Positions 4,888-33,780 of a stretch of 35,417 nucleotides of DNA are shown in pieces (the stretch's first letter is position 1; each line of letters opens with the position of its first letter). The translations under genes and the position numbers were made by a program. The notes under the pieces were generated by a model. The model had not been told where the DNA came from. It ran no database searches and saw only the letters and a program-made list of their open reading frames with translations. Origin of the DNA: Aerophototrophica crusticola. GTDB lineage: Bacteria > Pseudomonadota > Alphaproteobacteria > Azospirillales > Azospirillaceae. The stretch is taken from NCBI GenBank assembly GCA_001939945.1, contig MOEB01000042.1, positions 1 to 35,417 of the forward strand. The letters are read 5' to 3'.

Positions 4888-4901
4888 CGGGTGCCCCCTT
4901 C

Positions 4902-12141: not shown

Positions 12142-13083
12142 TCAAGGGCACTCGTGCTGCCTGCAATATTCGTCGACGGGCAAGAACGACTCCTCGCCCT
12201 CATCCCAGACCAGCTTGATGATGTTCGCCCCGGCGGCCTCGCGGAGGCCGAGAGGTGTCTCGCTCTGCGCTTTCATGCGTGAGATGAAATCCGCCGACGC
12301 GCCATAGGTCAGAAACCGCTCGTAATATTGGTTTAAATCGTTGGCGATGACCGCCTTCGCGTCCGCATCCAGGATGGTCACCGCTGGCTGTGGATTATGG
12401 AACAGCAGTTGGGTGCCCGGGATGACAGCACCCCTCGGCGACGCGGCCAGGACCAGGAGGCAAGACGAGGCACAGGCACCCTCGGTAACCACCATGATCT
12501 CACGTTCCCGGACAAGGTCGGCCAGCCGGAACGCATCCGTGAGCATGCCACCCGCGCTGCTGATGATCAGGAACCGGCGGTCTGGCTGCTTGAAGTGCTC
12601 CAGTACGGCGTCCACGGAGGACGGGTTGATATAGCCCACCAGCGCGATGTCCGATGTTTCGGTCATTTGGATGGAGTACTGCGTGCCGATGTCAGACTGC
12701 CGCAGCAGAATCACCTGGACCAGATCGTGGGTCACGGGGCCAAGGGTCCAGATGCTTTGCGCGAGGCCGACCCCCACCATGACCCTGGCGAGATAGGGTA
12801 GGAACCTCGGTTCCGGCGGGACTGAAAGCTTTCCCTTGCGCAAGGTCTCCCCTGCCGAGCGCCAGACGCCGACCAGGGCCCAGGCCGTGTAGACGATGAC
12901 CACCATGTTCATCGCCAGGGCAAGGGTGGGATTTCCCATCACCGGCGGCGTCAGGCTGAGAAGCCCTACGCAGAGCCCGAGGACCGCACCGATCAAAACG
13001 CCGTTCAGCCAATATGACTTGCCAAGGGATAGCTGCCCGCGCCAATGCGCCACGACGTAACCGAGCATTCTTCCAGAATCCAT
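12142..13083 (-). CDS. Membrane protein with ClpP-like (COG3904-type) domain inserted in the gsp operon
   Basis: About 313 aa. The start is uncertain: ATG 13083 is preferred, with GTG 13101 six codons earlier and ATG 13068 also possible, and none has a good RBS. The N-terminus carries the YVVAHWRGQLSLGKSYWLNG motif seen at the head of many small bacterial membrane proteins, then about three membrane segments (to about residue 125). The C-terminal domain (about 140-300) has the ClpP/crotonase-like pattern of COG3904 proteins: IISSAGGMLTDAFRLADLV, then CASSC (about 204-208, Ser206 the candidate nucleophile), then LLFHNP (His229). It may be a membrane-bound protease. Base composition is visibly less G+C-rich than its neighbours, and the gene separates gspK from gspL, which suggests insertion. 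Confidence 0.82.
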   Translation of the reverse strand: MDSGRMLGYVVAHWRGQLSLGKSYWLNGVLIGAVLGLCVGLLSLTPPVMGNPTLALAMNMVVIVYTAWALVGVWRSAGETLRKGKLSVPPEPRFLPYLARVMVGVGLAQSIWTLGPVTHDLVQVILLRQSDIGTQYSIQMTETSDIALVGYINPSSVDAVLEHFKQPDRRFLIISSAGGMLTDAFRLADLVREREIMVVTEGACASSCLLVLAASPRGAVIPGTQLLFHNPQPAVTILDADAKAVIANDLNQYYERFLTYGASADFISRMKAQSETPLGLREAAGANIIKLVWDEGEESFLPVDEYCRQHECP

Positions 13084-15479: not shown

Positions 15480-16676
15480 CTACCCAGCAAGATCGTAAAG
15501 CTCCATCACGGCGCTGACCAGTGACAGGACCACGCCGCCCACCAACACGCCCAGGACAAGGGTGAGCAGCGGCGCCACCAGGCTGGTGAAGCGCTGGGCC
15601 ATGCGCGCCGCGTCGGCCGCGAACAGGCCCGCCAGGGTACCGAGGCAGGGGCCCAGGCGGCCCGTCTCCTCCCCCACCGCCGCAAGCTCCGCCGCCACGT
15701 CGGGCAGGGTACCGTCGGCGCGCAGACTGTCCGACAGGGACCGGCCCGCGCGCACCGCCGTGCCCGCCCCCGCCCAGGCGTCGCCCACCGGCCCGGCCGC
15801 GGCCTTCGCCGCCAGGGGCAGGGCCTCCGCCAACGGCACGCCGCTTTGCAAAAGCAAGGAAAGGGCGCGTGTACTGCGTTCCAGCAGCACCGCCCGCACA
15901 TAGCCGCCGATGCCGGGCAGGCGCAGCGCCAGGGCCGCCAGCCCGTCCGACACCCCGCCGCGGCCCCGGCGCCAGACCGTCCACCCCGCAACGCCCGATC
16001 CCACCAGCAGCAGGGCCGGCCCATAGGATGCCAGCAGGCCGGACAGGCCCAGCATGACCCGGGTCAGGGGCGGCACCGGCCGGCCCATGGCCTCGAACAC
16101 CAGCTCGAACCGGGGCAGGACGACGCCCAGCAGGATGAGGAGCGCCACCGCCGCCACGCACAGCACCACCAGCGGATAGGTCAGGGCCCCGCGCAGGCTG
16201 GCCGCCAGCTCCGCCGAGCGCCGTTCGCCCTCGGCCAGCGCGCGCAAACCGGGCCCGAGCTTGCCCGCCGCCTCCCCCGCCGCCAGGATGGCCGCCGCCG
16301 CCTCGCCCAGCGGGTCGCCTTCGCCGTGCAGGGCCGCCGACAGGCCTTGTCCCGCCCGCACCCGGTCCCGCAAGGCCCGGGACAGGTCGCGCACCGGCTG
16401 CGCGCCCCGGTCGGCCCGGCCGGCCAGCAGGGCCAGGGCTCGTTCCAGGGGCAGGCCTGCCTCCACCAGCGTCGCCAGCTCCTCCAGGAAGCGCGCCCGC
16501 GCCTCCCGCCCCAGCGGCTTGCGCCCGGCGCGGGCACCCGCGGCCGGGGTGGCACGGATGGGCAGCAGGCCCTCGCCCTGCAGGCGGCGAATGGCCTCCG
16601 CCTCGCTGCCCGCGTCCATCTCGCCGTTGACCTGCTCCCCCGCCGGGGTCAGGGCGGTATAGGCGAAGCGGGGCAA
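15480..16676 (-). CDS. gspF: Type II secretion inner-membrane platform protein GspF
   Basis: 398 aa polytopic protein that couples the ATPase GspE to pseudopilus growth. The start is a TTG at 16676, three bases after the gspE stop. It is chosen because it gives the conserved GspF N-terminus (PRFAYTALTPAGEQVNGEMD), and no ATG precedes it. Two tandem GspF domains are visible. The first (about 70-190) begins FLEELATLVEAGLPLERALA. The second (about 270-395) begins STRALSLLLQSGVPLAEALP. Membrane segments lie near 170-190 (TYPLVVLCVAAVALLILLGV), 220-240 and 370-395 (LLTLVLGVLVGGVVLSLVSA). Length is standard for GspF/PilC. Confidence 0.95.
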   Translation of the reverse strand: MPRFAYTALTPAGEQVNGEMDAGSEAEAIRRLQGEGLLPIRATPAAGARAGRKPLGREARARFLEELATLVEAGLPLERALALLAGRADRGAQPVRDLSRALRDRVRAGQGLSAALHGEGDPLGEAAAAILAAGEAAGKLGPGLRALAEGERRSAELAASLRGALTYPLVVLCVAAVALLILLGVVLPRFELVFEAMGRPVPPLTRVMLGLSGLLASYGPALLLVGSGVAGWTVWRRGRGGVSDGLAALALRLPGIGGYVRAVLLERSTRALSLLLQSGVPLAEALPLAAKAAAGPVGDAWAGAGTAVRAGRSLSDSLRADGTLPDVAAELAAVGEETGRLGPCLGTLAGLFAADAARMAQRFTSLVAPLLTLVLGVLVGGVVLSLVSAVMELYDLAG

Positions 16677-16679
16677 GGC

Positions 16680-18314
16680 TCAGTCCCCCGCGCCCAGGGC
16701 CGCCACCAGCTCGGCATAACCCACGGTGCCGGCTGCCACCTGGGCCAGCCCTTCCTCCCGAAGGTCGCGGAAGCCTGACGCTTCGGCCGCCGCGCGCAGC
16801 CCGTCCGGCCCCGCCCCCTCCGCCACCGCCCGGCAGAAACCCGCATCCGCGACCAGCAACTCCGCCACCGGTACCCGGCCCGCATGGCCCCGTCCGTGGC
16901 AGGCCGGGCATCCGCCCTGCCGGTACCAGTCCGCCATGCCCACCCGGTCGCGCAAGGCCGCGGGTACCGGTTCCCGCTGCCGGCAATGGGGGCACAGTTT
17001 CCGCACCAGCCGCTGGCTCAACGCCCCCCGCAGAACCCCCGCCAGAAGGTACGGCTCCACCCCCATGTCCACCAGCCGCGCCACGCTCTCCACCGCCCCG
17101 TTGGCGTGGACGGTGGCCAGCACCAGGTGCCCGGTGAGGGCCGCCTGCACCGCCGTGCGCGCGGTTTCCCCGTCGCGCACCTCACCCACCATCAGCACGT
17201 CGGGATCGTGCCGCAGGACGCTGCGCAGGATGCGGGCGAAGTCCAGGCCGATGCCGTGGTTCACCTGGACCTGGGTGACGCCGGGCAGGTCGAACTCCAC
17301 GGGGTCCTCCACCGTCACCACTTTGCGGGTACCGTCCAGCACCTGGCCCAGCAGGGCGTAGAGGGTGGTGGTCTTGCCGCTGCCCGTCGGTCCGGCCACC
17401 AGCACCAGCCCGTGCGGCAACCCCGCCAGCCGTCCCAACCCCCCCGCCACCGCGGGCGGCAGGCCCAGGGCGCCCAGGTCACGGGCCTGCGCCGCCTTGT
17501 CCAGCACGCGCAGCACCGCCCCTTCCCCGAACAGGGTGGGCAGGATGGAGACGCGAAGGTCCACCGGCCGCCCCCGCACCGCCAGCCGGCAGCGCCCGTC
17601 CTGGGGCATCCGCCGCTCCGCCACGTCCAGCCGGGCCAGCACCTTCAGCCGCGCCACCAGCGCCGCCGCCAGGTCCGGCAGCAGCGACCGGTGGGTGACC
17701 AGCTGCCCGTCCACCCGCAGCCTCAGGCACAGCCGGTCCCGTTCCGGCTCCAGGTGGATGTCGCTGGCACCGCGGTCCACGGCTGCCTCCACCAGCTCAT
17801 CCAGCAGGCGGATGGCCGGCTCCTCCCGCCGCCCGTCGCGCAGGCGGGCCGCATCCTCCCCGTCCGCGGCACCGCCCGCCGGCGGGGCCGCGGCCGCGGA
17901 CGGCGGCGCCTCTCCCCGCAGCAGGGCCAGCACTGCCCCCACCGTACCCACCCGCACCGGCAGGTCCTGGCCCAGCGACCGGGCCGCCGCGGCGCGGGCG
18001 AAGCTGTCCGTCGGGTCGGCCAGCAGCAGGGCCGGGCCGCCCGGCCCCTCCACCGGGGCCAGCAGGTGCCGCTCCAGGAAGGCCGGCGACAGCCGCCGCG
18101 CCAGGGGGGACAGGGCGATGCCGTCCGTCCCCGCCAGGTCCAGCCCCTCGGCCCGGGCCAGGGCCCCGGCCATGTCCTCCTCGGCCACCAGCCCCAGCCG
18201 GGCCAGGGCCGCCACCGTCGCCTCCCCGGCGGCGACGGCCAGCCGTTCCGCCCGGCCGGCGGCGGTCTCGTCCAACAGGCCGGCCGCCACCAGCCGCCGC
18301 AGGGCCGTGCTCAT
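16680..18314 (-). CDS. gspE: Type II secretion ATPase GspE
   Basis: 544 aa cytoplasmic hexameric ATPase that powers pseudopilus assembly, from the ATG at 18314, 19 bases after the stop of the receptor gene upstream. An N-terminal GspE/MshE-like domain covers about 1-130, followed by an Ala/Gly/Pro linker. The core shows RGASDIHLEPERDRLCLRLR (about 181-200), Walker A GPTGSGKTTTLYALL (308-322), the Asp box VTVEDPVEFDLPG (333-345), Walker B with VLMVGEVRDGETA (373-385) and the His box TGHLVLATVHAN (394-405). The zinc-binding tetracysteine motif is CPHC (441-444) and CPAC (469-472). All catalytic elements are intact. Confidence 0.97.
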   Translation of the reverse strand: MSTALRRLVAAGLLDETAAGRAERLAVAAGEATVAALARLGLVAEEDMAGALARAEGLDLAGTDGIALSPLARRLSPAFLERHLLAPVEGPGGPALLLADPTDSFARAAAARSLGQDLPVRVGTVGAVLALLRGEAPPSAAAAPPAGGAADGEDAARLRDGRREEPAIRLLDELVEAAVDRGASDIHLEPERDRLCLRLRVDGQLVTHRSLLPDLAAALVARLKVLARLDVAERRMPQDGRCRLAVRGRPVDLRVSILPTLFGEGAVLRVLDKAAQARDLGALGLPPAVAGGLGRLAGLPHGLVLVAGPTGSGKTTTLYALLGQVLDGTRKVVTVEDPVEFDLPGVTQVQVNHGIGLDFARILRSVLRHDPDVLMVGEVRDGETARTAVQAALTGHLVLATVHANGAVESVARLVDMGVEPYLLAGVLRGALSQRLVRKLCPHCRQREPVPAALRDRVGMADWYRQGGCPACHGRGHAGRVPVAELLVADAGFCRAVAEGAGPDGLRAAAEASGFRDLREEGLAQVAAGTVGYAELVAALGAGD

Positions 18315-18333
18315 GCCGCCCCCCGGGCCGGGA

Positions 18334-19722
18334 TCATGCCGAGCGCGCCCGCAGGGGGGCGGGCTCGGCCGCTTCCCCGGCCTCCGGCGCCAGGAAAGCC
18401 AGCACCCCCTGCCGCCGGACGGGCAGCAGGGCCGCCAAGTCGGCGCCCAGGGTCGCGGGGGCCAGATGGCCGAACTGGTCCATGTAGCGGCCCAGCGTCT
18501 CCGACGCGTCGGAGGACAGCATCTCCAGCACCGCCGTGCGGCCGGGCTCCAGGAACAGGGTCGGCCGCTCCCGCACCTCCCCGCCCAACACCTCCCACAC
18601 GGCCAGCCGCCGCGACCCGGCGGCCCAGCGGGCCACAAGGATGCGCGCGTCGGGGAAGGCATGGGCCACCCGGCCCAGGGTGGCGCCCGGGTCCCGCTCG
18701 TCCGCCAGCAGGCCGCGCAGCAGCTTGGCCGCGGCACGGCCGCCGGCCACCCGGTCCAGCGGGTCGGTCCAGTCCATCCGCCCCAGCACCAGCCAGGCGT
18801 CCCCGTCGCCCTCCCACAGGTCGAGGAAGCCGGTGCCGTCCGGCTTCAGGCAGCGCGCGTCCACCGCCACGCCGGCCACCGTGCCGGACAGGGGGGCCGC
18901 ATAGCGGCGGGCCAGGGTGTCCAGCAGGTCGTCCATGTCGCGGAGCTGCTCGTTCTCCAGCATGCCCTGGCGGGACTTCTCCAGCTCCTTGCGCATCACC
19001 GCCTGCACGGTGCGCAGGCTCTCGTCCAGCTCCTCGATCTCACGCAGGCCGCCCGCGGGCTGCCAGCGCTCCACCTCGCCCGAGGCCACCAGCCAGACCC
19101 CGGCCTTCAGCTTGCGCAGGGGCCGGGCGATGCGCCACGTCACCCACAGGCTGACGGCGACCCCCGCCACGACGATCACCGCGGTCAGCGCGATGATCAG
19201 GTCGCGCATGCGCTGCAACTCGGCGCCGTACTCGTTCATGTCGGTGCGCAGCCGCAGGATGGCCGACAGCTTGCCCTCCCCGTCCAGGATGGGGACGAAG
19301 GCCACCGTCATGAAGCCCTCCTCCGGGCTCGGGATGACGCGGGAAACGAAGGGCCTGCCGCCCGCGACGCTCGCCTGTACCTCGGCCGACCTGGCCAGGG
19401 CGTCGATATAGCCCTTGGACTCCCCGAACTCGAACAGCGAGGTGCCGTCCGGCAGGACCAGGCTGACCCGCTCGATCCGGTTGGGCCCGGCCACCGCCTC
19501 CACCCGCTTGCGCAGCCGGTCCGGCATGCCCTGCCGGTCGGCGGCGCGCAGCCATTCGGCGCGGATGAACTCCGCCATGGTCACGGCGGCGGCCTGGGTG
19601 CGGGACTGGGCGCCCCAAACCATCTCCTGCTGCTTGTTCAGGAAGATCAGGGCGCCGCTGACAAGCGCCAGCCCGATGAACAGGGGCATGATGGCCGCGA
19701 GGGCCTGGGCCGGCAGCTTCAT
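18334..19722 (-). CDS. HAMP membrane receptor with degenerate PP2C (SpoIIE-like) C-terminal domain
   Basis: 462 aa. TM1 lies near 10-28, a periplasmic domain near 30-172 (ERVSLVLPDGTSLFEFGES; TVAFVPILDGEGKLSAILRL, single-Cache-like) and TM2 near 174-194. HAMP covers about 195-247 (RIARPLRKLKAGVWLVASG) and a coiled coil about 225-270. The C-terminal 180 residues follow the outline of the SpoIIE phosphatase fold when set beside the complete enzyme at 24744. However, the metal motif GGDLYD is replaced by TGFLDL (about 297-302) and GDVSGKG by GRMDWTD (about 314-320), so both metal Asp positions are lost. I infer a pseudophosphatase that signals by binding. The ATG overlaps the CNB gene stop (ATGA), and gspE follows at once. 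The PP2C relationship is by eye and needs a profile search. Confidence 0.75.
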   Translation of the reverse strand: MKLPAQALAAIMPLFIGLALVSGALIFLNKQQEMVWGAQSRTQAAAVTMAEFIRAEWLRAADRQGMPDRLRKRVEAVAGPNRIERVSLVLPDGTSLFEFGESKGYIDALARSAEVQASVAGGRPFVSRVIPSPEEGFMTVAFVPILDGEGKLSAILRLRTDMNEYGAELQRMRDLIIALTAVIVVAGVAVSLWVTWRIARPLRKLKAGVWLVASGEVERWQPAGGLREIEELDESLRTVQAVMRKELEKSRQGMLENEQLRDMDDLLDTLARRYAAPLSGTVAGVAVDARCLKPDGTGFLDLWEGDGDAWLVLGRMDWTDPLDRVAGGRAAAKLLRGLLADERDPGATLGRVAHAFPDARILVARWAAGSRRLAVWEVLGGEVRERPTLFLEPGRTAVLEMLSSDASETLGRYMDQFGHLAPATLGADLAALLPVRRQGVLAFLAPEAGEAAEPAPLRARSA

Positions 19723-20126
19723 GGCACACCTCCCGCGGCATCGCCTTCCACGGGCGCCACCGTGTCACAGAACCCGATCACCAGCGCGGGACATTCGTTC
19801 ACCAGGGTACGGAAGTGGCGCTTGGCCACCAGCAGGGCCCGCGCCCCCTCCGCCCGGCTGGCATGCAGGGCCGCGGCCGCGGGCCGGTCGAACAGCAGGT
19901 CCGCCAGCCCCACCACACCGGGCAGCGGCCGGCCCTCCCCGTCCTCGAAACCGCCGGAGCAGGCGACGTAGAGCTGCGCCACCGGCGCGCCGGCGGGCAG
20001 CACCAGCTCCCCCGGGGCGTAGGTCACCCAGCGGCTGACCTCGCCCACCGCCAGCAGTTCCGGCACCCGCAGCCGGTCGAAGGGCGGCACCCGGCGCAGG
20101 GCGAACATGGTGTCGATCAGGCTCAT
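19719..20126 (-). CDS. Small stand-alone cyclic nucleotide-binding-fold protein, probably degenerate
   Basis: 135 aa from the ATG at 20126, which overlaps the upstream stop (ATGA); its own stop overlaps the next ATG in the same way. The sequence follows the CNB (CRP-like) beta-roll: ALRRVPPFDRLRVPELLAVG, YAPGELVLPAGAPVAQLYVA, then a C-terminal helix LVAKRHFRTLVNECPALVIG. The phosphate-binding cassette, normally G-E-x-A-L with R-A/T-A-T, reads GLADLLFDRPAAAALHA here, so both the Glu and the Arg that hold the cyclic phosphate are missing. No DNA-binding domain is attached. It is likely a protein-protein module of the surrounding signalling operon rather than a true cAMP/cGMP sensor. Confidence 0.75.
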   Translation of the reverse strand: MSLIDTMFALRRVPPFDRLRVPELLAVGEVSRWVTYAPGELVLPAGAPVAQLYVACSGGFEDGEGRPLPGVVGLADLLFDRPAAAALHASRAEGARALLVAKRHFRTLVNECPALVIGFCDTVAPVEGDAAGGVP

Positions 20127-21406
20127 GCCCCGTCCCCCGCCGGATGGATGCGCCAGGCCTGGCCCGGCGACAGGGCGACCGTTGCCCGGCCGGTCAGCAC
20201 GTCGGGCCGCGACCCGTCCCGTTCCAGCACCAGCGGCCGCACCGTGGCCACGTGCAGCATCCCGCCGTCCAGCAGCACCAGCCCGCGCAGCTCCGGGCCG
20301 AGCAGGGCCGGCAGCGCGTGGGGCAGGCCGGGCCCGCCCGGCTCCTCCGGCAGCATCCGGGCCAGCAGGGCCCGCCAGGACCGCCGCTCCACCGCCGCGG
20401 CCAGGGGGTCCTCCGGCAGGTCCACCCACCACCACAGGGTCCGCCCGCTGCGGTCCAGCCGCCCGTCGGCGCGAACCGGTCCCTTGCCCGGCGGCTCCTC
20501 CTGCAGCAGGCGGATGATCTCCCGCTCCCGCCGCTCCTCCTCCGTGCGCCGGTCGGTTTGGCGCAGCGTCTCCAGCCGTTCCCGCAGCGTCGCGCTCATG
20601 CGGTTGAAGCCGTGGGCGAGCGCCCGCAGCTCCGTCGGCCCGGTGGGCTCCACCTGCAGGCCGAACTTGCCGGCCGAGACCTCGAACCCCGCATATTTCA
20701 GCTTGCGCATGGGTGCCGCCAGCCGCACGGCGATGGCATAGGCGATGGCCGTGCCGATCAGCAGGGACAGGCCGCCCACCACGCCCACATTCACCAGCGC
20801 GATGCGGGTCCGCCGCTGGATGGAGGTGATGTCCACGTCCGCCCCAGCCATGGCCACGGGCTGGCCGGCGGAATCGCGGATGGGGGAGAAGGCGGTCTTG
20901 ATCAGGCCCCACTGTTCCCAGGCCTGGATGGGGGTCAGGTGGACCACCCCGTCCGTCACCACCTTGCGGATGTTGTCCGCGTCGTCCTCCGGCATGGTGT
21001 CGGCATAGCCGGGGGGGCTGTGGTTGTCGTCGGTGTTGGCGTCGAACAGGTAGACGATGTCCAGCACGCCGGTGACCTTCTGGGAGTACAGGTAGGTCAG
21101 GTCCAGCTTGGCCTTGATCTCCCGCATCGGCTCCACCGTGTCCAGGAACTCGCGGGAGGCTTCCATGGCGGCGGCGTCGAAGTCCGGCTCCCTCAGCCGG
21201 GCGGCCATCTCCTGGTGCTTGTCGCCGTCGATGAAGGCGGCGGTGATGGTGGACACGGCCACCAGCTTCCCGTCGAAGCCGGCCAGGATGGTCTGGTACA
21301 GCTCACGATAGATCAGCACACCCGAGGCCACGGTGATCAGCACCAGGATCGGGATGGTGGTGCGCAGGACCAGTGCCTGCAGCCCGTATGTGGCGCGCCG
21401 GCTCAT
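20123..21406 (-). CDS. Sensor protein with extracytoplasmic Cache-like domain, HAMP and degenerate PP2C-like tail
   Basis: 427 aa. TM1 lies near 12-33, an extracytoplasmic sensor domain near 34-200 (Cache-like; DIVYLFDANTDDNHSPPGY and IKTAFSPIRDSAGQPVAMAG), TM2 near 203-226, HAMP near 227-280 (RLAAPMRKLKYAGFEVSAG; HGFNRMSATLRERL), and a charged coiled coil near 275-302. The last 120 residues keep the strand order of a shortened SpoIIE domain (RTLWWWVDLPEDPLAAAVE; GLVLLDGGMLHVATVRPLVL; TVALSPGQAWRI) but have no GGDLYD-type metal motif and no FTDGVTE motif. The ATG at 21406 overlaps the upstream stop. It is similar in plan to the receptor at 18334 and to the active phosphatase at 24744. The output is unknown; a binding role is inferred. 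Confidence 0.75.
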   Translation of the reverse strand: MSRRATYGLQALVLRTTIPILVLITVASGVLIYRELYQTILAGFDGKLVAVSTITAAFIDGDKHQEMAARLREPDFDAAAMEASREFLDTVEPMREIKAKLDLTYLYSQKVTGVLDIVYLFDANTDDNHSPPGYADTMPEDDADNIRKVVTDGVVHLTPIQAWEQWGLIKTAFSPIRDSAGQPVAMAGADVDITSIQRRTRIALVNVGVVGGLSLLIGTAIAYAIAVRLAAPMRKLKYAGFEVSAGKFGLQVEPTGPTELRALAHGFNRMSATLRERLETLRQTDRRTEEERREREIIRLLQEEPPGKGPVRADGRLDRSGRTLWWWVDLPEDPLAAAVERRSWRALLARMLPEEPGGPGLPHALPALLGPELRGLVLLDGGMLHVATVRPLVLERDGSRPDVLTGRATVALSPGQAWRIHPAGDGA

Positions 21407-24400
21407 GCCGCGGACATCCTCGTCTCAAGCAGCCTGAGCGCCAGGCTGGGGAAGGTCTGGGCCGCCGCCAGCAGCACGCCGCGCGGGATCACGACGATCT
21501 CTGCCCCCTCCAGGGTGGCCGTGCGGGCATAGCGGCCGCCATGCAGGCTTTCCGTGCCGAACAGGGTGCCCTGCGCCACGGGCGTGGCGCCGCCGGGGCC
21601 GGACAGGGTGCAGTGGCCGCGGTGCAGGATGAACAGGCTGTCCGCCGGCTCCCCCGCCGCGAAGATCTCCAGCGTCTCCGGCGCCAGGCAGCTTTCCGAG
21701 GCCAGAGCCACGGGCAGCAGGTCGCGCAGGCTGATGTCCTGGAACAGCTCCGTCCGCGCCAGGGAGGCCAGCCGGCGCACCAGGGTCAGGTCGCTGCGGT
21801 GCTTCTCGATGTGCAACAGTTCCCGCAGGGTGAACTGCAACGGGTCGGACCTGTCGGGCCGCAGCCGCTCGCGCAGCCGCCCCGCCGCCTTGTCGGGGTA
21901 CAGGTCCCACAGGACCTGCATGGCCGCGGCCCCCAGCAGCCCCTCCCCGTCCGCCGCCGCGGCGTCCAGGATGGAATCGGCGTCCGCCACCGCCACGCGC
22001 CGGGCCGCCAGCCGTTCCTCCGCGGACCGGCCGTCCACCATGGGGCGCAGCTTGGCATAGGTGTCCCGGTGGACACCCTGCTCCAGAGCCTCCAGCGCGT
22101 TGCCCCGCACCTTCGGGTTGGGCGACCGCAGGCTGCTGAGCAGCAGGTCGAAGTCCGGCAGGTCGCCGTTCAGGCAGAGCAGCAGCAGGGCCAGGTCGAT
22201 GCCGTCCCGCTCCGCGTCGCGGTAGCAGCGCCACAGCAGGTACATGCCGTCCGACGTCTCCGCCCGCGCGGCCAGGGCCGCACCCTTGGCCAGGCTGGCA
22301 TAGGCCTGGTCGATCTCCCCCGCCACCAGCTCATGGGCGATGGCCTGGAACTGGGGCAGGGACAGGCGCGCAAGGGCGCGCGCCGCCACGGCCCGGCCGC
22401 TGACGTTGGCGTTGCGGTCACGCAGGTGCGACACCAGCATGGGGATGGCCGGGGTGCCCATGCCGATGGCCATCCGCTCGGCCATGCGGCGTTCCAGCGG
22501 GGTGAAGCCGTCGGTGCGCAGCAACACGCCGCGCAAGGACCCGGGGTCGCCGGAGGAGCCCAGCACCTCCATGGCCGTCACCCGCATGTCGGCCGTGGCC
22601 CCGTCCAGGGTGGCCAGCACGGGCGGCACAAGCCGGGTGCTGGCCAGCGGCCCCATCTCCTTCAGGGCCAGCAGCGCCTCCCGCCGGACCTGGGGGCTGC
22701 GGTCCTCCAGGAACTGCGCCACGAGGTGGCTGAACTGCGGCTGGCGGAGCTGGCCCAGGGCGCGAACGGCGGCGCAGCGCTCCGCCTCCTCCCCCACCCG
22801 CAGCTCGTCCAGCATGCCCAGCGCCCGCAGGCCGTCACGGGATTCCGGGCTGTGCCACAGGGGCACCAGCAGGGCGCCGCGCTGGCCCGCCTCCTCCGCC
22901 GCGGCCATCAGGCGGCCCAGCTCCGTCCGGTCGATCAGGCGGAAGTTGCCCAGCTCCTCCACCACGGACGGGCTCTTCAGCAGGTCGGCCCGGTGCAGGG
23001 CCTCCACCGCCGCCAGGATCGTCTCCACCTCCCCGCCGCCCAGCACCTGGCGCAGCATGGGCTTGGCCTCCCGGCGCCCCTCCTCGTCGGTGCGGGCCAG
23101 GAAGGCCACCAGCGGGTCCAGCAGCTCCCCCGGCGCCTTGTCGCTCAGGCAGCGCAGGGCGAACAGGGCGTCCTCCGGCGCGCTCTCCGGGTCGGAGGCG
23201 ACCATGGAGAGCTGCTGCAGCTCGTCCTTGCCCAGGGGGCCCACCATCTCCGCCTCGCCCCGGGTCAGGTCCAGCCAGCCGCGGCGCAGATTCTCGATCA
23301 TGGACTGGCGGTAAAGCCCGCCCAGGGCAAGCACCAGGCAGATCAGCAGGATGGCCAGCCCGATGCCGACCGCCGACAGGGATTCCGCCGACATGGCCTT
23401 GGCCGTGGCCAGCAGGAACAGGCCGGTCAGGCAGGTCACCACCGGCTCCCCCAGCCCTTCCACGAAGGTGCGCACCTGCTTGCGGTAGCGGGCCTGGATG
23501 GCGTTGAACAGGAAGTTGGCGTTGTTGAAGTCCACGGAACTGACCAGCCCGTGCAGCACCACGAACCCGAACAGGGCCGCCGCCATGCCCCGGTCCACGA
23601 AATAGAAGGTGAACAGGGCCAGGTAGAAGGCGGGCACCACCAGGGCCACGTTGCGCACGCCGATGCGCAGGACCATCCGGTTGAAGACGAACAGGTTGAT
23701 GACGAGGTTCACCACGTTCGCCGCGCCGTAGAGCTGGCCCAGCAGGCCGGCCAGGGCGTTCTCGTCCCGGCCTTGCGACAGCACGTTCAGGTACTGGTAC
23801 TCGTTGATGTTCGCCAGCACCAGCCACAGCATGAAGACGGTGACCAGGACCGGCACATAGGCGTTGCCCACCAAGGCCTGCCCGATGCCGCGCACCTGTT
23901 CCGCCAGCCCGCCGGGCGCCTCCTCCCCCTCCGATTCGGTCAGCGCCGGCAGGCGGTTGCGGATGCGCCGCAGCACCGGCAGGGTCAGCAGGGCCGTGCC
24001 CGCCCAGACCAGGTACCAGGTGCCGACGCTCACCGTCTCCGCCACCGGGCCCATGACGCTGCCGGCCAGCACGCCGCCCATGGCGGTGCCGGCGGACAGC
24101 AGGGCGAACAGGCGCTTGCCGTCCTGGATGTCGAAATACTCGTCCGCCAGGTTCCAGAACAGGGTGTACAGGCCGATGTACCAGATGGCCGAATAGATCC
24201 GCAGGGCATAGAAGGCCCATTGGTCGAAGGGGGCGGAAAGCTGCACGCCCCCGTCCAGCAGGAACCAGAATCCCACCCCGCCGACCACCAGCACGCCCAT
24301 GGCCAGTTCCAGCACCCGCGACACGGGGAGTGACCCGGTCAGCAGGGAGAAGACGGGCGTGTAGACCGCCATGACGACGGGCATCAGCACATAGATGACG

Positions 24401-24561
24401 GGCAGGCTGTCGGCGCCGACCTTGGACAGGAACATGGCGTCGCCCGCGGACATGCCGATGTTCAGCCCGAACTGCAGCAGCACGGCAAGCAGGCCGAAGG
24501 ACAGCACCCTCGGCAGGTCGCCCCGCTCGACCCGCAGGAATCTTAACAGTCCCGCCGTCAT
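21403..24561 (-). CDS. NTT-like (ATP/ADP translocase-like) membrane domain fused to HEAT repeats and a C-terminal CNB domain
   Basis: 1052 aa from the ATG at 24561, with GGGGACTT as RBS; a GTG at 24606 is a weaker choice. Residues about 1-420 hold 10-12 membrane segments in the pattern of NTT/Npt nucleotide transporter-like proteins (GDAMFLSKVGADSLPVIYVL; YTLFWNLADEYFDIQDGKRL; GQLYGAANVVNLVINLFVFN). Residues about 440-900 are HEAT-like helical repeats (CAAVRALGQLRQPQFSHLVA; SPQVRREALLALKEMG; GRAVAARALARLSL). The last 110 residues are a CNB domain (LEIFAAGEPADSLFILHRGH; GTLFGTESLHGGRYARTATL) that keeps the cassette Arg but has Thr where Glu is usual. Fusions of this type are known in bacteria, but their function is not settled. 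It heads the four-gene signalling operon; a transport or sensory role is inferred. Confidence 0.85.
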   Translation of the reverse strand: MTAGLLRFLRVERGDLPRVLSFGLLAVLLQFGLNIGMSAGDAMFLSKVGADSLPVIYVLMPVVMAVYTPVFSLLTGSLPVSRVLELAMGVLVVGGVGFWFLLDGGVQLSAPFDQWAFYALRIYSAIWYIGLYTLFWNLADEYFDIQDGKRLFALLSAGTAMGGVLAGSVMGPVAETVSVGTWYLVWAGTALLTLPVLRRIRNRLPALTESEGEEAPGGLAEQVRGIGQALVGNAYVPVLVTVFMLWLVLANINEYQYLNVLSQGRDENALAGLLGQLYGAANVVNLVINLFVFNRMVLRIGVRNVALVVPAFYLALFTFYFVDRGMAAALFGFVVLHGLVSSVDFNNANFLFNAIQARYRKQVRTFVEGLGEPVVTCLTGLFLLATAKAMSAESLSAVGIGLAILLICLVLALGGLYRQSMIENLRRGWLDLTRGEAEMVGPLGKDELQQLSMVASDPESAPEDALFALRCLSDKAPGELLDPLVAFLARTDEEGRREAKPMLRQVLGGGEVETILAAVEALHRADLLKSPSVVEELGNFRLIDRTELGRLMAAAEEAGQRGALLVPLWHSPESRDGLRALGMLDELRVGEEAERCAAVRALGQLRQPQFSHLVAQFLEDRSPQVRREALLALKEMGPLASTRLVPPVLATLDGATADMRVTAMEVLGSSGDPGSLRGVLLRTDGFTPLERRMAERMAIGMGTPAIPMLVSHLRDRNANVSGRAVAARALARLSLPQFQAIAHELVAGEIDQAYASLAKGAALAARAETSDGMYLLWRCYRDAERDGIDLALLLLCLNGDLPDFDLLLSSLRSPNPKVRGNALEALEQGVHRDTYAKLRPMVDGRSAEERLAARRVAVADADSILDAAAADGEGLLGAAAMQVLWDLYPDKAAGRLRERLRPDRSDPLQFTLRELLHIEKHRSDLTLVRRLASLARTELFQDISLRDLLPVALASESCLAPETLEIFAAGEPADSLFILHRGHCTLSGPGGATPVAQGTLFGTESLHGGRYARTATLEGAEIVVIPRGVLLAAAQTFPSLALRLLETRMSAA

Positions 24562-24574
24562 AAGTCCCCGCACC

Positions 24575-24594
24575 ACCCCCGTAAGGCCGGGGGT
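24575..24594 (-). promoter_or_regulatory. Hairpin in the 5' leader of the NTT-HEAT-CNB gene
   Basis: ACCCCCG, loop TAAGGC, CGGGGGT forms a perfect 7-bp stem 14 bases upstream of the ATG at 24561, just before the RBS. It might influence translation or mRNA stability. No known riboswitch class was recognised. Confidence 0.35.
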
Positions 24595-24610
24595 CGCCCC
24601 GTCCACCTGT

Positions 24611-24641
24611 ATTATATCCGGGTCTTCAGAAAATGTGTTAA
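24611..24641 (-). promoter_or_regulatory. Candidate sigma-70 promoter of the NTT-HEAT-CNB signalling operon
   Basis: On the minus strand a perfect TATAAT (24616-24611) lies about 50 bases before the ATG, with TTAACA (24641-24636, one mismatch to TTGACA) upstream at 19-base spacing, slightly long. It sits in an AT-rich patch within the 182-base divergent gap. If it is real, it may also serve the downstream type II secretion genes, because no other gap that large occurs until gspF/gspG. Confidence 0.45.
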
Positions 24642-24743
24642 CCCTTTGGCGCGGACATTTTAGGGTGAGCCGCGTGCGTGTTCCGGCGGCAATACCTGCC
24701 TCGTGCCCGACAGGGCCCGACTTGAATTCTGGGGTGCTTGACG

Positions 24744-26348
24744 ATGACCATCAGGCTGGGTGTTCGGCAAAAGCTGCTGTTGCTGCTTTTCCTCCTCAAC
24801 CTGACCAGCGCCGCCGCTTACTCGTTCCTGTCCTACACGGCGTTGCATGACGCGCAGATGGAAGGAATTGACGCCCGGTTGCAGGCTGCGGCCTACGGCA
24901 CACTCAAGATCACGTCCCGGGCCTACCATGACCGGATCGTGGATGAGGACAGCGTCCCCGAAGCCGAATACCTGGCCATGATGACCCGGCTGAACGAGTT
25001 CGCGGTCATGACGGGCATGACCTATGTCTACACCTACATGCCCCATGGCGACGGCTTCGTGACCACGGCCACCAACGCCACGGAAGAGGAGCTGGCGAAG
25101 AAGACCTTCGACCGCTTCTTCCACCAGTACGACGCCTCCGACCTGATGAAGGAGGCGGTGGCGAAGCGGGAGATCAGGTACGAGAACCTGAAGGACGAGT
25201 ACGGCACCTTCCGGTCCGTCTACATCCCCTTCACCACGGAAAGCGGCAAGATCTTCATCGCCGGCGCCGACCTGCCCATCGACTTCGTCAACAAGAAGAC
25301 GCAGGAGGTGGTGGTCCTGTCCGTGGCCATCGGCGTGGCCAGCTTCACCCTGTTCTTCATCGTGGCCGGCATGGTGCTTGGGCGGATCATCCAGCCGCTA
25401 ATCGCCCTGACGGGACACACCCGCTCCCTCGCCTCCAACAACTTCCAGGTGGACCCTTGCACCCGTGAGGCGCTGCGCGACATCCGCCGCAGCCGCGGGG
25501 ACGAGGTGGGGGAATTGGCCCGCGCCATGTCCACCATGCTGACCCAGCTCGAGGCCTATATCGAGGACCTGAAGGAGACGACCGCCGCCAAGGAGCGGGT
25601 GGAGGGCGAGCTGTCCGCCGCCCGCGACATCCAGATGGGCATCCTGCCCCGCGACTTCCCCGCCTTCCCGGAGCGGGCGGAGTTCGACCTGCATGCGGTG
25701 ATGGAGCCGGCCAAGTCCGTGGGCGGCGACCTCTACGACTTCTTCCTGATGGACGAGGACCACCTGTTGTTCCTGGTGGGCGACGTGTCGGGCAAGGGCG
25801 TGCCGGCGGCCCTGTTCATGGCGGTCGCCAAGACCCTGTTCAAGGGCAGCGCCGTCCGGCCGGGCGATTCGGTCAGCACCATCATGCACCAGGTGAACCT
25901 GACCCTGGCGCGGGAGAACCCGTCGGAGCTGTTCATCACCGCCTTCGTCGGCGTGCTGAACCTGCGCACGGGGGAGGTGGAGTACTGCGACGCCGGCCAT
26001 GACGCGCCCTTCATCATGCATGCCGACGGGAAGGTGGAGCGGGTGACCAAGGTCCCCGGCCTGGCGCTGTGCGTGTATGAGGAGTTCGAGTACCGGGTGG
26101 GCAAGCTGCGCCTCACCCCGGGCGACCGGCTGGTCCTGTTCACCGACGGCGTGACCGAGGCGCACAATCCCACGGCGGACGTTTTTGGCTTCGACCGGGT
26201 GGCCGCGGCAATCCGGGAGGCCGGGCCCGGCGCCAGCCCGTCCACCATCACCGGCACCCTGCACCAGGCGGTGACGACCTTCGCCGACGGGGCGGAGCAG
26301 TCCGACGATATCACCATCCTCGTACTGGAATTCCGCGGCCCCGGCTGA
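24744..26348 (+). CDS. Membrane-bound Cache-HAMP-PP2C serine phosphatase (SpoIIE/RsbU family)
   Basis: 534 aa from the ATG at 24744 (GGGGTG upstream); a TTG two codons earlier is possible. TM1 lies near 8-28, an extracytoplasmic Cache-like domain near 30-185 (MTGMTYVYTYMPHGDGFVTT; YIPFTTESGKIFIAGADLP), TM2 near 188-212 and HAMP near 212-270. The PP2C domain (about 285-531) is complete: ARDIQMGILPRDFPAFP, SVGGDLYDFF (Asp329), LVGDVSGKGVPAALFMAVAK (Asp347), CDAGHDAPF, LVLFTDGVTEAHNP (Asp468) and QSDDITILVLEF (Asp521/522). It should dephosphorylate a STAS-type anti-anti-sigma protein in a partner-switching pathway in response to a periplasmic signal; the STAS protein at 33829 is a candidate substrate. 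It is divergent from the pseudophosphatase operon. Confidence 0.94.
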   Translation: MTIRLGVRQKLLLLLFLLNLTSAAAYSFLSYTALHDAQMEGIDARLQAAAYGTLKITSRAYHDRIVDEDSVPEAEYLAMMTRLNEFAVMTGMTYVYTYMPHGDGFVTTATNATEEELAKKTFDRFFHQYDASDLMKEAVAKREIRYENLKDEYGTFRSVYIPFTTESGKIFIAGADLPIDFVNKKTQEVVVLSVAIGVASFTLFFIVAGMVLGRIIQPLIALTGHTRSLASNNFQVDPCTREALRDIRRSRGDEVGELARAMSTMLTQLEAYIEDLKETTAAKERVEGELSAARDIQMGILPRDFPAFPERAEFDLHAVMEPAKSVGGDLYDFFLMDEDHLLFLVGDVSGKGVPAALFMAVAKTLFKGSAVRPGDSVSTIMHQVNLTLARENPSELFITAFVGVLNLRTGEVEYCDAGHDAPFIMHADGKVERVTKVPGLALCVYEEFEYRVGKLRLTPGDRLVLFTDGVTEAHNPTADVFGFDRVAAAIREAGPGASPSTITGTLHQAVTTFADGAEQSDDITILVLEFRGPG

Positions 26349-29045: not shown

Positions 29046-30953
29046 ATGCTCGCCCACACCAGCATCCGGGCCAAGCTCTACGGTGGCTTCCTGGCCCTGC
29101 TCGTCCTGTGCGGACTGGCGGGGCTGCTGGCCCTGTACAACCTGTTCCAGACCGGCCGGATCGCCGTGGTCCTGTATGACAGCGTGTTGCAGGCCACCGA
29201 CGCGGCCCGCTCCGCCCAGGCGGACTTCAGCGACCTGCGCCGCTTGGCGATGCAGTCCCTCTCCCCCGACCAGGGCGTGCGGGAGGAGGCGCGCAAGGCC
29301 TATGGCGAGGCGCGGGAGATGCTGGACGGCAACCTTTCCATCGCGGCGGAACGGGCGCCCACCCCCGCCCTGCGCGGCCATGTGGATGCGGTGGCCGCGT
29401 CCCTGAAGGACTGGGACGCCCGCGTCTTCGCCCTGTTCGGCGGCACCGGGGGCGACGCCGCCCTGGCAGAGGTGGAGGGCATGGCCGCCGACATCCGCGG
29501 CAAGATCGATGTGGCTGTGGAGGAGACCAAGGCCCACGGCTTCGAGTTCATGGAGGCCGGGCGGGAACAGATCGCCACGGCCCAGATCGTGACCGTCCTG
29601 TCCGGTGCCGTCGCCGTGGCGCTGGGCGTGGCCCTGGCGGTGCTGCTGGCCCGCGACATCCTGCTGGCCCTCGGCGAGGCGGTGCGCCGCGCCGCCGCCG
29701 TGGCCGGGGGTGACCTGTCGGAGCGGCCCGACCCCGGCCGGACGGACGAGTTGGGGCGCCTGCTCAACTCCCTCGACAGCATGCGCCGCAGCCTGCTGGA
29801 GCAACAGGCGCGGGAAGCCGCCCTGGCCGCCGCGGCGGAGCAGGCGCGGGAGAACGCCCTGCGCGGCATGGCCGAGACGGTGGAGCGGGAGGCCGGCCGT
29901 GCCGTGGCGGAGGTGGCCCGCTTCACCGGGGAGCTGCGGCAGGACGCGGAGGCCATGTCCGGCTCGGCGGAGCGGCTGAGCGGCAATGCCCAGAGCGTCG
30001 CCGCCGCCTCGCAGCAGACCCTGTCCAACGCCCAGGCGGTGGCCGCGGCGGCTGAGGAACTCGCCGTCTCCATCCAGGAGATCACGGCCCAGGTTTCCCA
30101 TTCCGCCAGCGTCACCCGGCAGGCGGTGGAGGCCGGCGGCCAGGCACAGGCCAGCATCGCCACCCTGTCCGACGCGGTGGGTCGCATCGGCGAGGTGGCG
30201 ACCCTGATCCGCGACATCGCCGCCCAGACCAACCTGCTGGCCCTCAACGCCACCATCGAGGCCGCCCGCGCCGGGGAGGCCGGCAAGGGCTTCGCCGTGG
30301 TGGCGCAGGAGGTGAAGATCCTGGCCAACCAGACCGCCAACAGCACGGAGGAGATCGCCCGCCAGATCGCCGGCATCCAGCAAGCCACCGGCGGCGCCGT
30401 GGCAGCCGTCAGCGCCATCGGCGGCGCCCTGGGCCGGGTGGAGCAGGTTTCCGGCACCATCGCTGCCGCCATGGAGCAGCAGGCCGCCGCCACGCAGGAG
30501 ATCAGCCGCAACGTGGCCGTCACCTCCGACGCGGCACGGGAAGTTTCCGCCCGCATCGCCGCCGTGTCGGAGGATGCGGTGCTGACCGGCCAGCAGGCAG
30601 GCCACGTGCGCGGCAGCTCGGCGGAGATCGCCGGCAGCGTGGAGGCGCTGCGCCACGTCCTTGTCCGGGTCGTCCGCACCAGCGTGGAGGAGGTGGACCG
30701 CCGCCGCCACCCTCGCCAGGACACGGACGCCCCCTGCCTGCTGGCGGTGGCCGGCCAAGTGGCGGAGGGGCACCTGTCCGACCTGTCCGAGGGCGGCGCC
30801 CGCGTCGTCGCCGACCTGGACGCGGACCCGGGCGACACCGGCACCCTGACCCTGGACGGCGTGGCCCGCCCGGTCATGGTCATCGCCCACGCCAACGGCA
30901 CCCTGCGCCTGCGCTTCACCGACGCGGCGGGTGAGGCGGTCGACGCCGCCTGA
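29046..30953 (+). CDS. Methyl-accepting chemotaxis receptor with C-terminal PilZ domain
   Basis: 635 aa. TM1 lies near 8-30, a helical periplasmic domain near 31-180 (4HB-like), TM2 near 184-207 and HAMP near 207-262 ([20 protein letters not shown]). The signalling coiled coil covers about 300-540, with the conserved hairpin tip [20 protein letters not shown] near 392-411 and [19 protein letters not shown] after it. The C-terminal PilZ domain (about 550-630) keeps both c-di-GMP motifs: RRHPR (R553 and R557, RxxxR) and DLSEGG (D579-G584, D/NxSxxG). The layout resembles Azospirillum brasilense Tlp1, whose PilZ domain binds c-di-GMP. It probably tunes CheA signalling to the c-di-GMP level. The RBS is GGGGG, six bases before the ATG. 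No che genes are nearby. Confidence 0.95.
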
Positions 30954-31153: not shown

Positions 31154-33163
31154 TTACCCCCACCGCTGCACGTGGTAAACCGCGTCCTTCCCGAAGTTCT
31201 TCGCCAGCGACATCACCCCCACATAGCTGCACGCGGCCACCGGGGCGAACGCCTCCCCCGCCGCCTCCGCCTCATGCCGCCGCTGGCTTTCCTCCGTCGT
31301 CAGCAGGGCGACGAACTGTTGGGTGGCGTAGATGTGGCCGGGGACGGTGACCGGCTCCAGCCGGGCCGCCCGGTTGATGTGGCTGCCGAAGAAGTTGGGG
31401 CGGTCGTTGAAGGGGTCGCGGCCCATGAAGACCGGGCCGGCGTGGAGGGAGATGCGGATGTCCAAATAGATACCGGCATCCTTGTCCGTGGTCCGGTGCC
31501 GGCGGATCGCCTCTTGCAGGGCGAAGGCGAAGCGGGCCAGGTCGGTGGCCCGGGGCATCACGGCGAAGACGGCGTCGCCCCAGGTATTGATCACCTCCGG
31601 CTTCGGCAGGTCTTCCCCCAGGTCGGCCGCGACTTTTCCTAAGAACTCCATGAAATAGGGGATCGCCGCCTCGGACAGCTTGCTGTAGCCCACCAGGTCG
31701 GCGAACAGCATGGCGCGGATCACCCGTTCCGGCGACACCGTGCGCACCGGGCGGGGCGCCGGTACCTTGCCGGGATCCAGGGTCACCGTCTCTGCCGCCT
31801 CGGGCAGGCCATAGCGGATCTCGTCGATGTCGATGATCTGCAAGCGGCTGATGTCGGCCCACTGGTCGATGAAGTCTGCCGCACCGCCGGACAGGCTGCC
31901 CTCCATCATGTCCCAGACGGCCAGCAGGTTGGGGGCGGTCTCCAGGAACTCGGCCCGCAGGGTGCTCAACCCGTGCAGCATCTGGTTCTGGAAGCGGAAA
32001 AGCTGTTCGTGGCCCAGCCAGTTCTCCTGCGTCGCATGGACCACGGAATGGGCCAGCCGCAGCACGTTGCGGAACCGCCGCTCCCACCGCGGCCCGGCGA
32101 AGGCCACGTTGGTGGCCACGTAATCCTCCGTGTCGAAGGGCAGGACGATGTTCGCCTCCCCGTCCCGCTCCAGCAGCGCCTCCACGAACAGCAACTCGGC
32201 CCCGCAGGCGGCGCCCGAATAGCCCACCTGCACGTCCATCCGCTCCAGCCGCCTTGCGATCTCCGCCCGCAGGGCCGTTTCCAGCCGGGGCGGGAAGCGT
32301 TCCTCCGCCTGCCCCGGCCGGTCCATCATGTGGCCGGTGAAGACCACCACCCCCGGCGGCTTCAGCACCATGTCCACGTCGGCCGGCACCTTGACGCCTT
32401 CTGCCCGCAGCTTCCGCGCCAGCCGCAGGAACGGCACCACCTGGGGGCTGCGGCGGCCAAGGTCCTCCACCGCCAGGCCGAACAGGTCCACCGCCTGCCC
32501 GGTCTTCCCCGCCAGCAGGGCCGCCAGGCCGCGGGACGCGCCGATCCTGAAGGCCGTCTCCCCGTCATTCACCCCGGCGGGGTCCGGTGCGGCCAGCACC
32601 TGGGCCGCCAGGGCCCCCGCCGCCTCGGCCCGGCCCAGCAGGTGCAGGGTCACGGCCGCCGACGCGCCCGCCCGCACGTCCCCGCCCAGGGCGAAGCCTT
32701 CCTCCAGCAGGGTGTGGGCCGTCTCCAGCAGGGCGGGATCCCCCACCTTCTGCCAGGCCTCCAGGTGCAGTTCCCCCAGCCGGGTCAGCAGGTCCGGCTC
32801 CACCTGGCCCTGGCGCAGGCCGGCGTTGCGCACCGCGTCCAGGCTGTGCACCAGCTCCGCCATCGCCGCCAGCGCGGCACGGCCTTCCGGGTCCTTCTTC
32901 AGGCTGGCCAGCGTCGCCTGCAAGGCGCCCTTGGCCGCCAGCAGCGGCTTGGTGTCGAACCGTGCCAGCACCGGCTTCAGGGTGGCCACCGCCTCCGCCA
33001 CCGCGCCGGTGCGGATCAGGGCCAGCGCCACCAGCATGCGCAGACGCACGCTTTCCGGATGGGCCTTCAGCCCCTCCCCCGCCAGGTCCTGGGCGATGAA
33101 GACCTGCCCGCTTTCCAGCAGGGCGGCGACGCGCTCTTCCAACTGGTGCAGGCTGTCGCCCAT
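31154..33163 (-). CDS. TPR-Rossmann-class III nucleotide cyclase
   Basis: 669 aa, no membrane segment. Residues about 1-250 are helical TPR-like repeats. About 270-405 is a Rossmann-like domain (VVVFTGHMMDRPGQAEERFP; GYSGAACGAELLFVEALLE; NIVLPFDTEDYVATNVAF), similar to SLOG-type or TRAFs-binding-associated domains that accompany TPRs in bacteria. The C-terminal class III cyclase domain (about 478-625) has both metal Asp residues, FADLVGYS (D489) and WGDAVFAV (D530), plus HAGPV and NFFGSHINRAAR with Asn597 and Arg601 for transition-state binding. The purine-selecting residues are Asn526 and Asn590, unlike Lys/Asp of adenylyl or Glu/Cys of guanylyl cyclases. The start is the ATG at 33163. It is convergent with the chemoreceptor and divergent from the RsbW-like gene. 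Confidence 0.9.
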   Translation of the reverse strand: MGDSLHQLEERVAALLESGQVFIAQDLAGEGLKAHPESVRLRMLVALALIRTGAVAEAVATLKPVLARFDTKPLLAAKGALQATLASLKKDPEGRAALAAMAELVHSLDAVRNAGLRQGQVEPDLLTRLGELHLEAWQKVGDPALLETAHTLLEEGFALGGDVRAGASAAVTLHLLGRAEAAGALAAQVLAAPDPAGVNDGETAFRIGASRGLAALLAGKTGQAVDLFGLAVEDLGRRSPQVVPFLRLARKLRAEGVKVPADVDMVLKPPGVVVFTGHMMDRPGQAEERFPPRLETALRAEIARRLERMDVQVGYSGAACGAELLFVEALLERDGEANIVLPFDTEDYVATNVAFAGPRWERRFRNVLRLAHSVVHATQENWLGHEQLFRFQNQMLHGLSTLRAEFLETAPNLLAVWDMMEGSLSGGAADFIDQWADISRLQIIDIDEIRYGLPEAAETVTLDPGKVPAPRPVRTVSPERVIRAMLFADLVGYSKLSEAAIPYFMEFLGKVAADLGEDLPKPEVINTWGDAVFAVMPRATDLARFAFALQEAIRRHRTTDKDAGIYLDIRISLHAGPVFMGRDPFNDRPNFFGSHINRAARLEPVTVPGHIYATQQFVALLTTEESQRRHEAEAAGEAFAPVAACSYVGVMSLAKNFGKDAVYHVQRWG

Positions 33164-33360: not shown

Positions 33361-33780
33361 TTGGCCGAATCGCTCGACCTCGTGCTGAAGAACGACCTGG
33401 GGGAGCTGGACCGCCTGCTCTCCCTGGCGGAGGAATTCTGCGAGGGGCACGGCGCCTCGCCCAAGGTCACCTACCAGGTGGGCCTGGTGCTGGATGAGCT
33501 GTTCACCAACATCGTCTCCTACGGCTTCGACGACGGGCGGGACCACGACATCCGGGTGCGCCTGTGGCTGGGCGACGGGTCCCTGCACGCGGAACTGGCC
33601 GATGACGGCCGCCCCTTCGACCCGTTGAGCGAGGCGGCGGAACCGGACCTGGCGGCGGAGGTGGACGACCGCGCCATCGGCGGCCTGGGCGTCCATTTCG
33701 TGAAGACGTTCATGGACGGCACGCGCTATGAATACGTGGATGGGCAGAACCGCCTGCGCTTCTGGAAGGCGCTGGGCTGA
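33361..33780 (+). CDS. RsbW-like anti-sigma factor serine kinase (HATPase_c_2)
   Basis: 139 aa from a TTG at 33361, chosen because GGCGGGGGGACAGC stands just upstream and because the frame further upstream lacks family sequence. The GHKL ATPase motifs are complete: N-box LVLDELFTNIVSYGF (E46, N50), G1 box ADDGRPFDP (D82, G83) and G2 box AIGGLGVHFVKTFMD (107-111 Gly-rich). In partner switching such kinases bind and inactivate a target (sigma factor or other effector) and phosphorylate a STAS antagonist; the STAS gene is 48 bases downstream. No sigma factor gene is in the window, so the target is unknown. Confidence 0.93.
   Translation: MAESLDLVLKNDLGELDRLLSLAEEFCEGHGASPKVTYQVGLVLDELFTNIVSYGFDDGRDHDIRVRLWLGDGSLHAELADDGRPFDPLSEAAEPDLAAEVDDRAIGGLGVHFVKTFMDGTRYEYVDGQNRLRFWKALG

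Follow-up and report, generated by a model that had tools for sequence, protein, structure and literature searches.

RsbU-RsbV-RsbW and SpoIIE-SpoIIAA-SpoIIAB are examples of partner switching, Escherichia coli RssB carries a degenerate PP2C domain, and Rhodobacter capsulatus is said to possess a predicted partner-switching system (PMC3999984). The locus considered here was examined from a 35,417-nucleotide stretch of Aerophototrophica crusticola (MOEB01000042.1, a whole contig, hereafter the window), in which four minus-strand genes, designated A, B, C and D, lie directly ahead of the type II secretion gene gspE. Like the RsbU and SpoIIE systems, the locus has a SpoIIE-type PP2C phosphatase (designated U), an RsbW-family GHKL kinase and a STAS protein with conserved serines, but it adds an NTT-HEAT protein (A), two membrane sensors (B and D, the latter with an apparently dead PP2C-like domain), a cyclic-nucleotide-binding (CNB) protein (C), a SET methyltransferase and a decarboxylase, and there is no sigma factor among its conserved neighbours. 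It is considered fairly probable that A-B-C-D make up the membrane-sensor half of a locus of nine genes devoted to partner switching (U, A, B, C, D, STAS, RsbW, SET and decarboxylase), a reading which draws on directly observed composition, gene order, overlaps, fusions and residue conservation.

Other described systems resemble parts of this locus. In SiaABCD of Pseudomonas aeruginosa, the phosphatase SiaA and the kinase SiaB balance the phosphorylation of SiaC (PMC7647112). A model of D matches the PP2C structure of SiaA (6k4e_B, E 6.7e-3), but the conserved order here is without a diguanylate cyclase gene of that kind and has an extra NTT-HEAT protein and pseudo-phosphatase. Rv1364c (3ke6) is described as combining PP2C and RsbW domains in a single chain, a feature also of the D-RsbW protein of Niveispirillum irakense; by contrast, D is a predicted membrane protein and its PP2C-like domain is without the catalytic Asp. 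Of the PP2C-type structures matched by D, RssB ranks first (3f79, E 2.9e-6; also 8t85), but where RssB has a receiver domain, D has membrane helices and a sensor domain. Fusions of NTT-HEAT and NTT-HEAT-cNBD (cyclic-nucleotide-binding domain) type have been described with functions unknown, with a cNBD gene directly downstream in some genomes and with labile HEAT/cNBD fusions (Major et al., 2017; PMC5381601). A has the NTT-HEAT-cNBD architecture, but no partner-switching or SET/decarboxylase locus is given in the accessible portion of that paper, and the CNB gene C of the present locus comes after B. No description of the wider gene combination was found in the open-licence PubMed Central literature and the locus is apparently undescribed; partner switching and NTT-HEAT fusions are already known, the unusual set of parts being new.

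Using home-made profiles, 27 loci were scored, namely the window, L048-L052 and L122-L142 (L016 and L017 are the same places as L048 and L049 and were counted once). All 27 showed the order U-A-B-C-D with U divergent from A-D, and in 22 this was followed by STAS on the opposite strand to A-D and then by RsbW, SET and decarboxylase genes on the same strand as A-D (an apparent swap of STAS and RsbW in L131 is a scoring artefact of frame midpoints). The four genes A-B-C-D thus stay together, and the scattering in relatives named in the first-pass annotation as counting against its finding was not seen. The loci departing from the full order were those of the window, N. irakense, RU38E, Phenylobacterium (L050) and L140. 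The nine genes do not all lie together in the window genome: U, RsbW and STAS are at the positions given in Table 1, and the SET and decarboxylase genes are on another contig. The genus relatives N. irakense (DSM 11586) and RU38E (Azospirillum sp.) share the order PrmC-U followed by A-B-C-D with an RsbW-type kinase domain at the end of D, and in both the SET and decarboxylase genes lie past PrmC; in N. irakense the fused D is followed by STAS, and in RU38E an RsbW-STAS pair lies elsewhere (L088). The second half of the Phenylobacterium locus is on another contig (L087), and the contig of L140 ends within D.

Table 1. Genes of the locus and the gspE junction, with coordinates in the window.
Feature	Coordinates	Strand	Length (amino acids)	Basis
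A: NTT-like membrane domain, HEAT repeats and C-terminal CNB	24561-21403	-	1052	Pfam; profile match in 27/27 loci
B: sensor half homologous to that of U, HAMP, unassigned C-terminus	21406-20123	-	427	Pfam, HHalign
C: predicted small CNB-fold protein with broken cassette	20126-19719	-	135	profile against solved structures; cassette column
D: sensor, HAMP-like and PP2C-like domain predicted without catalytic Asp; RsbW-fused in two relatives	19722-18334	-	462	AlphaFold2, Foldseek, fusion, Asp columns
D-gspE gap, 19 bases	18333-18315	-		direct reading
gspE: neighbour in window genome only, outside conserved locus	18314-16680	-		PF00437 1.7e-115; neighbour comparison
U: SpoIIE PP2C phosphatase with sensor and HAMP, transcribed divergently from A	24744-26348	+		PF07228 2.2e-49; adjoins A in 27/27 loci
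RsbW-type GHKL kinase	33382-33780	+		PF13581 1.1e-23; reaches D-fused domain of N. irakense (G001) and RU38E (G002)
STAS protein with SSAGLR	33829-34164	+		PF01740 1.2e-16; alignment

Within the window, each neighbouring pair A/B, B/C and C/D shares an ATGA, as read directly from the open reading frames. Across the 27 loci, B/C and C/D each overlap by 4 bases in 26 and A/B by 4 or 11 bases in 25, these counts being biased toward overlaps by choosing, among nearby starts, the start codon nearest to the upstream stop. The RsbW, SET and decarboxylase genes of the Sphingomonas paeninsulae copy also overlap by 4 bases. The annotation of that copy is piecemeal: PP2C, MFS transporter, HAMP protein, Crp/Fnr regulator, hypothetical protein, STAS, ATP-binding protein, SET methyltransferase and diaminopimelate decarboxylase.

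All three partner-switching components, a SpoIIE-type PP2C, an RsbW-type GHKL kinase and a STAS protein, are present in the conserved locus, and those of the window lie outside the four genes of the first-pass annotation. U has Asp at all five tested catalytic sites in every locus, and the STAS protein has SSAGLR in all 24 proteins available. RsbW, the motifs of which seem intact by eye, was present in 25 of the 27 loci; the Phenylobacterium copy lies elsewhere in the genome, and the gene is missing only in L140, where the contig ends. Among the alternatives offered in the first-pass annotation was a membrane sensor complex serving partner switching, and it is this alternative which is supported, and extended by the phosphatase, the kinase, the STAS protein and the D-RsbW fusions.

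Protein D gave no single Pfam family match and was modelled with AlphaFold2 from 6 sequences (mean predicted local distance difference test score (pLDDT) 74.3, predicted TM-score 0.43, block means of 70-92 over residues 271-450). In Foldseek searches its C-terminal domain resembled the PP2C domains of RssB, RsbX, RsbU, Rv1364c and SiaA, with TM-scores by target of 0.38-0.59 for the named PP2C matches with E below 2e-4 and of 0.53 for SiaA, and its N-terminal domain resembled the sensor domains of WalK and CitA, the best match overall being a whole-length WalK model. Asp was found at the GD column in one of 26 proteins and at the motif-1 column in one of 26 (the window), the columns having been picked by reading the sequence, not by superposition, and the truncated D of L140 having been left out. 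D is accordingly predicted to have a PP2C-like fold without the metal-binding Asp, and by its sequence does not qualify as an active PP2C phosphatase. In N. irakense and RU38E, D and RsbW form one fusion protein, which suggests that the two touch; in N. irakense (G001) no RsbW match at 1e-3 was detected besides the fused one. The C-terminus of D was also considered as an RsbW homologue, and this was rejected, since the HHalign probability of 99.9% was due to the fused kinase of L048 and L049 within the alignment and fell to 0.2-0.8% when that kinase was cut off. Comparison of the C-terminus of D with the PP2C of U by HHalign likewise gave no match.

B contains a HAMP domain (5.1e-7), and its sensor half is homologous to the N-terminal half of U (HHalign 99.2%); the corresponding match between the sensor halves of D and U (91.6%) is less sure. 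In A, Pfam detected HEAT (2.8e-12) and TLC/NTT (PF03219, 9.6e-6, residues 110-175 only), with cNMP_binding just under the cut-off (25.2 against 27.5 bits), so the NTT-HEAT-CNB label given to A earlier stands, with all three domains in the one chain of the window. Of the 27 A proteins, 24 have 767-886 amino acids and are without the CNB length of the three with 1051-1052. C also gave no single Pfam family match, but a profile of 17 of the 27 C proteins reached CNB structures at 1e-17 and it is assigned to the CNB fold on this basis. The phosphate-binding cassette motif of such domains has a conserved Arg; at the column picked by the author for this residue, R was found in 5 of the 17 proteins and A in the window, in keeping with the earlier description of C as a stand-alone degenerate CNB protein. 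It should also be mentioned that a sister arrangement was seen in the window genome (C307; L018 7546-13272) and four relatives (L019-L022), comprising, one after another, a SET-like gene, an NTT-HEAT-CNB paralogue, a membrane histidine kinase and a response regulator, with the SET, kinase and regulator genes judged by eye and L020 and L021 from the first 30 residues.

The decarboxylase resembles diaminopimelate decarboxylase (1knw, 1.6e-47). EPGD was present in 22 of 24 proteins and GNI[NT]EA in 23 of 24, while EPGR and C[ED]SxD, with which 1knw aligns at those sites (as EPGR and CESGD), were found in none of the 24; the decarboxylase of L137 runs off its contig, and the motif listed for it is not genuine. 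In the subfamily (L157 9015-10818 and the 24 sequences), EPGR and CESGD of the known enzyme are replaced by EPGD and GNINEALD, and judging from these motifs its activity may be changed.

The A-B-C-D block is rare. Full-length A was found in 2 of 10 other genomes of the genus, and a pattern scan of named genomes added one Phenylobacterium and two Erythrobacter records. For the family of the Erythrobacter record (G416, included), an A profile gave strong matches in 8 of 347 genomes, and for that of the Phenylobacterium record (G415, included) in 15 of 299. In the order of A. crusticola 4 of 82 genomes matched, three of them strongly, and in a class sample 4 of 385 matched at 1e-20, the only strong match being the own genome, with a 3-row profile that would miss distant members. 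In a phylum sample only the own genome and one already counted matched (2 of 398). G1341 shares contig coordinates with G769 and was taken as the same genome, and weak A matches (G017, G022, G026, G033, G035, G111, G357 and G1108) were left out of the system counts. The decarboxylase subfamily (E < 1e-200) was present in 3 of 11 genus genomes, precisely the three with A (Fisher 0.006). In the sample of 299, A and the decarboxylase were each found in 15 genomes and both in 14 (p 5.8e-22), with A only in G899, where the contig ends in D, and the decarboxylase only in G992. In the window genome the decarboxylase and SET genes lie 97 kb in from the nearer end of a separate contig, C109, and so both were kept without linkage.

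Several points weigh against the partner-switching reading. Much of the co-occurrence of A and the decarboxylase represents one locus inherited together, which largely accounts for the p value obtained. Linkage is not strict, since RsbW-STAS lies approximately 14 kb from D in the window and no STAS follows D in RU38E. The AlphaFold2 model of C alone was useless (pLDDT 41.5). The C-terminus of B, which is short and variable, was not shown to be PP2C-like (HHalign against the PP2C of U 1.9%, 1.5% and 0.2%), and the 'degenerate PP2C' label given earlier to both proteins is supported for D, because of its fold, and not for B. Finally, neither a switch target nor a sigma factor was found among the conserved neighbours of the 27 loci, the genomes as a whole not having been searched for a target.

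With regard to gspE, the first-pass annotation had placed its start 19 bases past the stop of a block of four overlapping minus-strand genes, and direct reading agrees in both respects, as D ends at 18334 and gspE starts at 18314. A scan of 16500-25000 found no consensus promoter or terminator, including in the 19-base gap, where the first-pass annotation had named such a pair as counting against its finding, and because of this transcript read-through from D into gspE is likely in the window genome. Within the U/A region of the window, TATAAT was seen by eye at 24616-24611 with TTAACA 19 bases before it; EcfG, sigma54, sigma32 and sigma70-like pair motifs were found in none of the 27 U/A regions. 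It could equally well be true or false that the link to secretion is one of expression only, with the promoter region of A also driving the gsp genes and setting secretion levels in this genome without protein contact. Both the short gap and the lack of a consensus promoter ahead of gspE agree with this, as does the fact that it needs no feature common to relatives, but the scan is blind to other promoter types, and such coupling is compatible with partner switching and is thus not a full alternative to it. Profiles of gspE, gspF and gspD matched in the window and in none of the 26 other loci, the sequence available downstream ending in D for L140, 1.5 kb after D for L137 and at 4.8-6.6 kb for the other 24. 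N. irakense has A-B-C-D and no close GspE (best match 38% over 137 residues), RU38E has its type II secretion genes elsewhere, with gspD and not A-D adjoining gspE, and none of four other gsp loci examined in the genus has A-D beside gspE. On the question raised earlier of whether the four-gene order always precedes gspE, the order is kept, and gspE is its neighbour in the window alone. The gsp genes probably came to lie behind D in the window genome by rearrangement, and may share the A-D transcript there, as a local matter, without being the target of the system. The conserved module itself is real, and the first-pass annotation attached it partly to the wrong neighbour.

Same-strand genes at 1-6590, behind the gsp genes, encode an exoprotein of the two-partner secretion type, truncated at the contig end (TPS domain 2.6e-29), together with its ShlB-type transporter, and a gene among the gsp genes (12142-12942) has a Clp-protease-like match (PF00574, 2.9e-5). 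Elsewhere in the window are a chemoreceptor with a C-terminal PilZ domain (29046-30953) and, divergent from RsbW-STAS, a TPR protein with a class III nucleotide cyclase domain (31154-33163; PF00211, 6.7e-10). Facing U in 23 of the 27 loci (L051 3425-4216, L050 7471-8256 and 21 others) is another conserved gene. It has no Pfam family and looks cyclase-like by eye, with DMxGST and WKxMGDE motifs, a weak label since no PF00211 match was obtained in the 9 members scanned. A profile of 9 of the 23 members touches the structure 1ybt (0.0092), presumably a mycobacterial adenylyl cyclase, and the gene gave no match in the genomes of the window, N. irakense and RU38E (G000-G002).

It is unlikely that A is instead a working nucleotide transporter regulated by B-C-D, with the phosphatase, kinase and STAS protein as its regulators. 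The TLC/NTT match would suggest such a role, STAS domains are regulators of anion transporters, and STAS domains and transporters are reported to associate in other proteins (PMC8256260), but the match is limited to the short stretch given above, and the sister NTT-HEAT proteins sit with a histidine kinase and response regulator, which fits signalling. A pathway in which a neighbouring cyclase supplies the nucleotide sensed by the CNB domains of A and C is judged decidedly improbable. The TPR-cyclase adjoining RsbW in the window and the gene facing U would provide candidates, but the lengths of most A proteins, the Arg column of C, and the absence of the cyclase-like gene from three genomes together with its lack of a PF00211 match disfavour cyclic-nucleotide sensing as a common core. 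That A-D form a sensor complex dedicated to type II secretion, acting on GspE, GspF or GspL, is scarcely credible, as the gating of GspE/GspF proposed earlier from the 19-base junction was not borne out by the comparison of loci (two of the 26 uninformative or short), by N. irakense or by the other gsp loci of the genus.

Under the partner-switching reading, A-D most likely form a membrane sensor complex setting the RsbW/U balance on the STAS protein. B, D and U would read extramembrane signals via their sensor domains, and the dead PP2C-like domain of D would keep RsbW at the membrane, and perhaps the STAS protein as well, the binding of RsbW being suggested by the two natural fusions. The transporter-like A, with its HEAT scaffold, and C would complete the complex. 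Going by what is known of these families, RsbW would phosphorylate the STAS protein and U would dephosphorylate it, signals would shift the balance between the two, and the freed partner would then act on its target, with the SET methyltransferase and unusual decarboxylase as probable outputs or modifiers. A bolder version is offered tentatively and is more doubtful: the NTT-HEAT protein and one or two dead sensor phosphatases might form a standing platform holding RsbW, so that pseudo-enzymes decide switching at the membrane, the output being protein-lysine methylation and a changed pyridoxal phosphate enzyme (SET and the EPGD/INEALD decarboxylase) and no sigma factor, with the SET/NTT-HEAT pair connected in the sister systems to a response regulator and its histidine kinase partner.

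The locus ties one group of NTT-HEAT proteins to a defined signalling chemistry whose readout, phosphorylation of the STAS protein, can be measured, and the natural D-RsbW fusion names the first contact to probe. It would also represent a partner switch that incorporates a pseudo-phosphatase, and it presents an unexplained bond of NTT-HEAT proteins with a SET methyltransferase and with a decarboxylase subfamily whose active site is altered.

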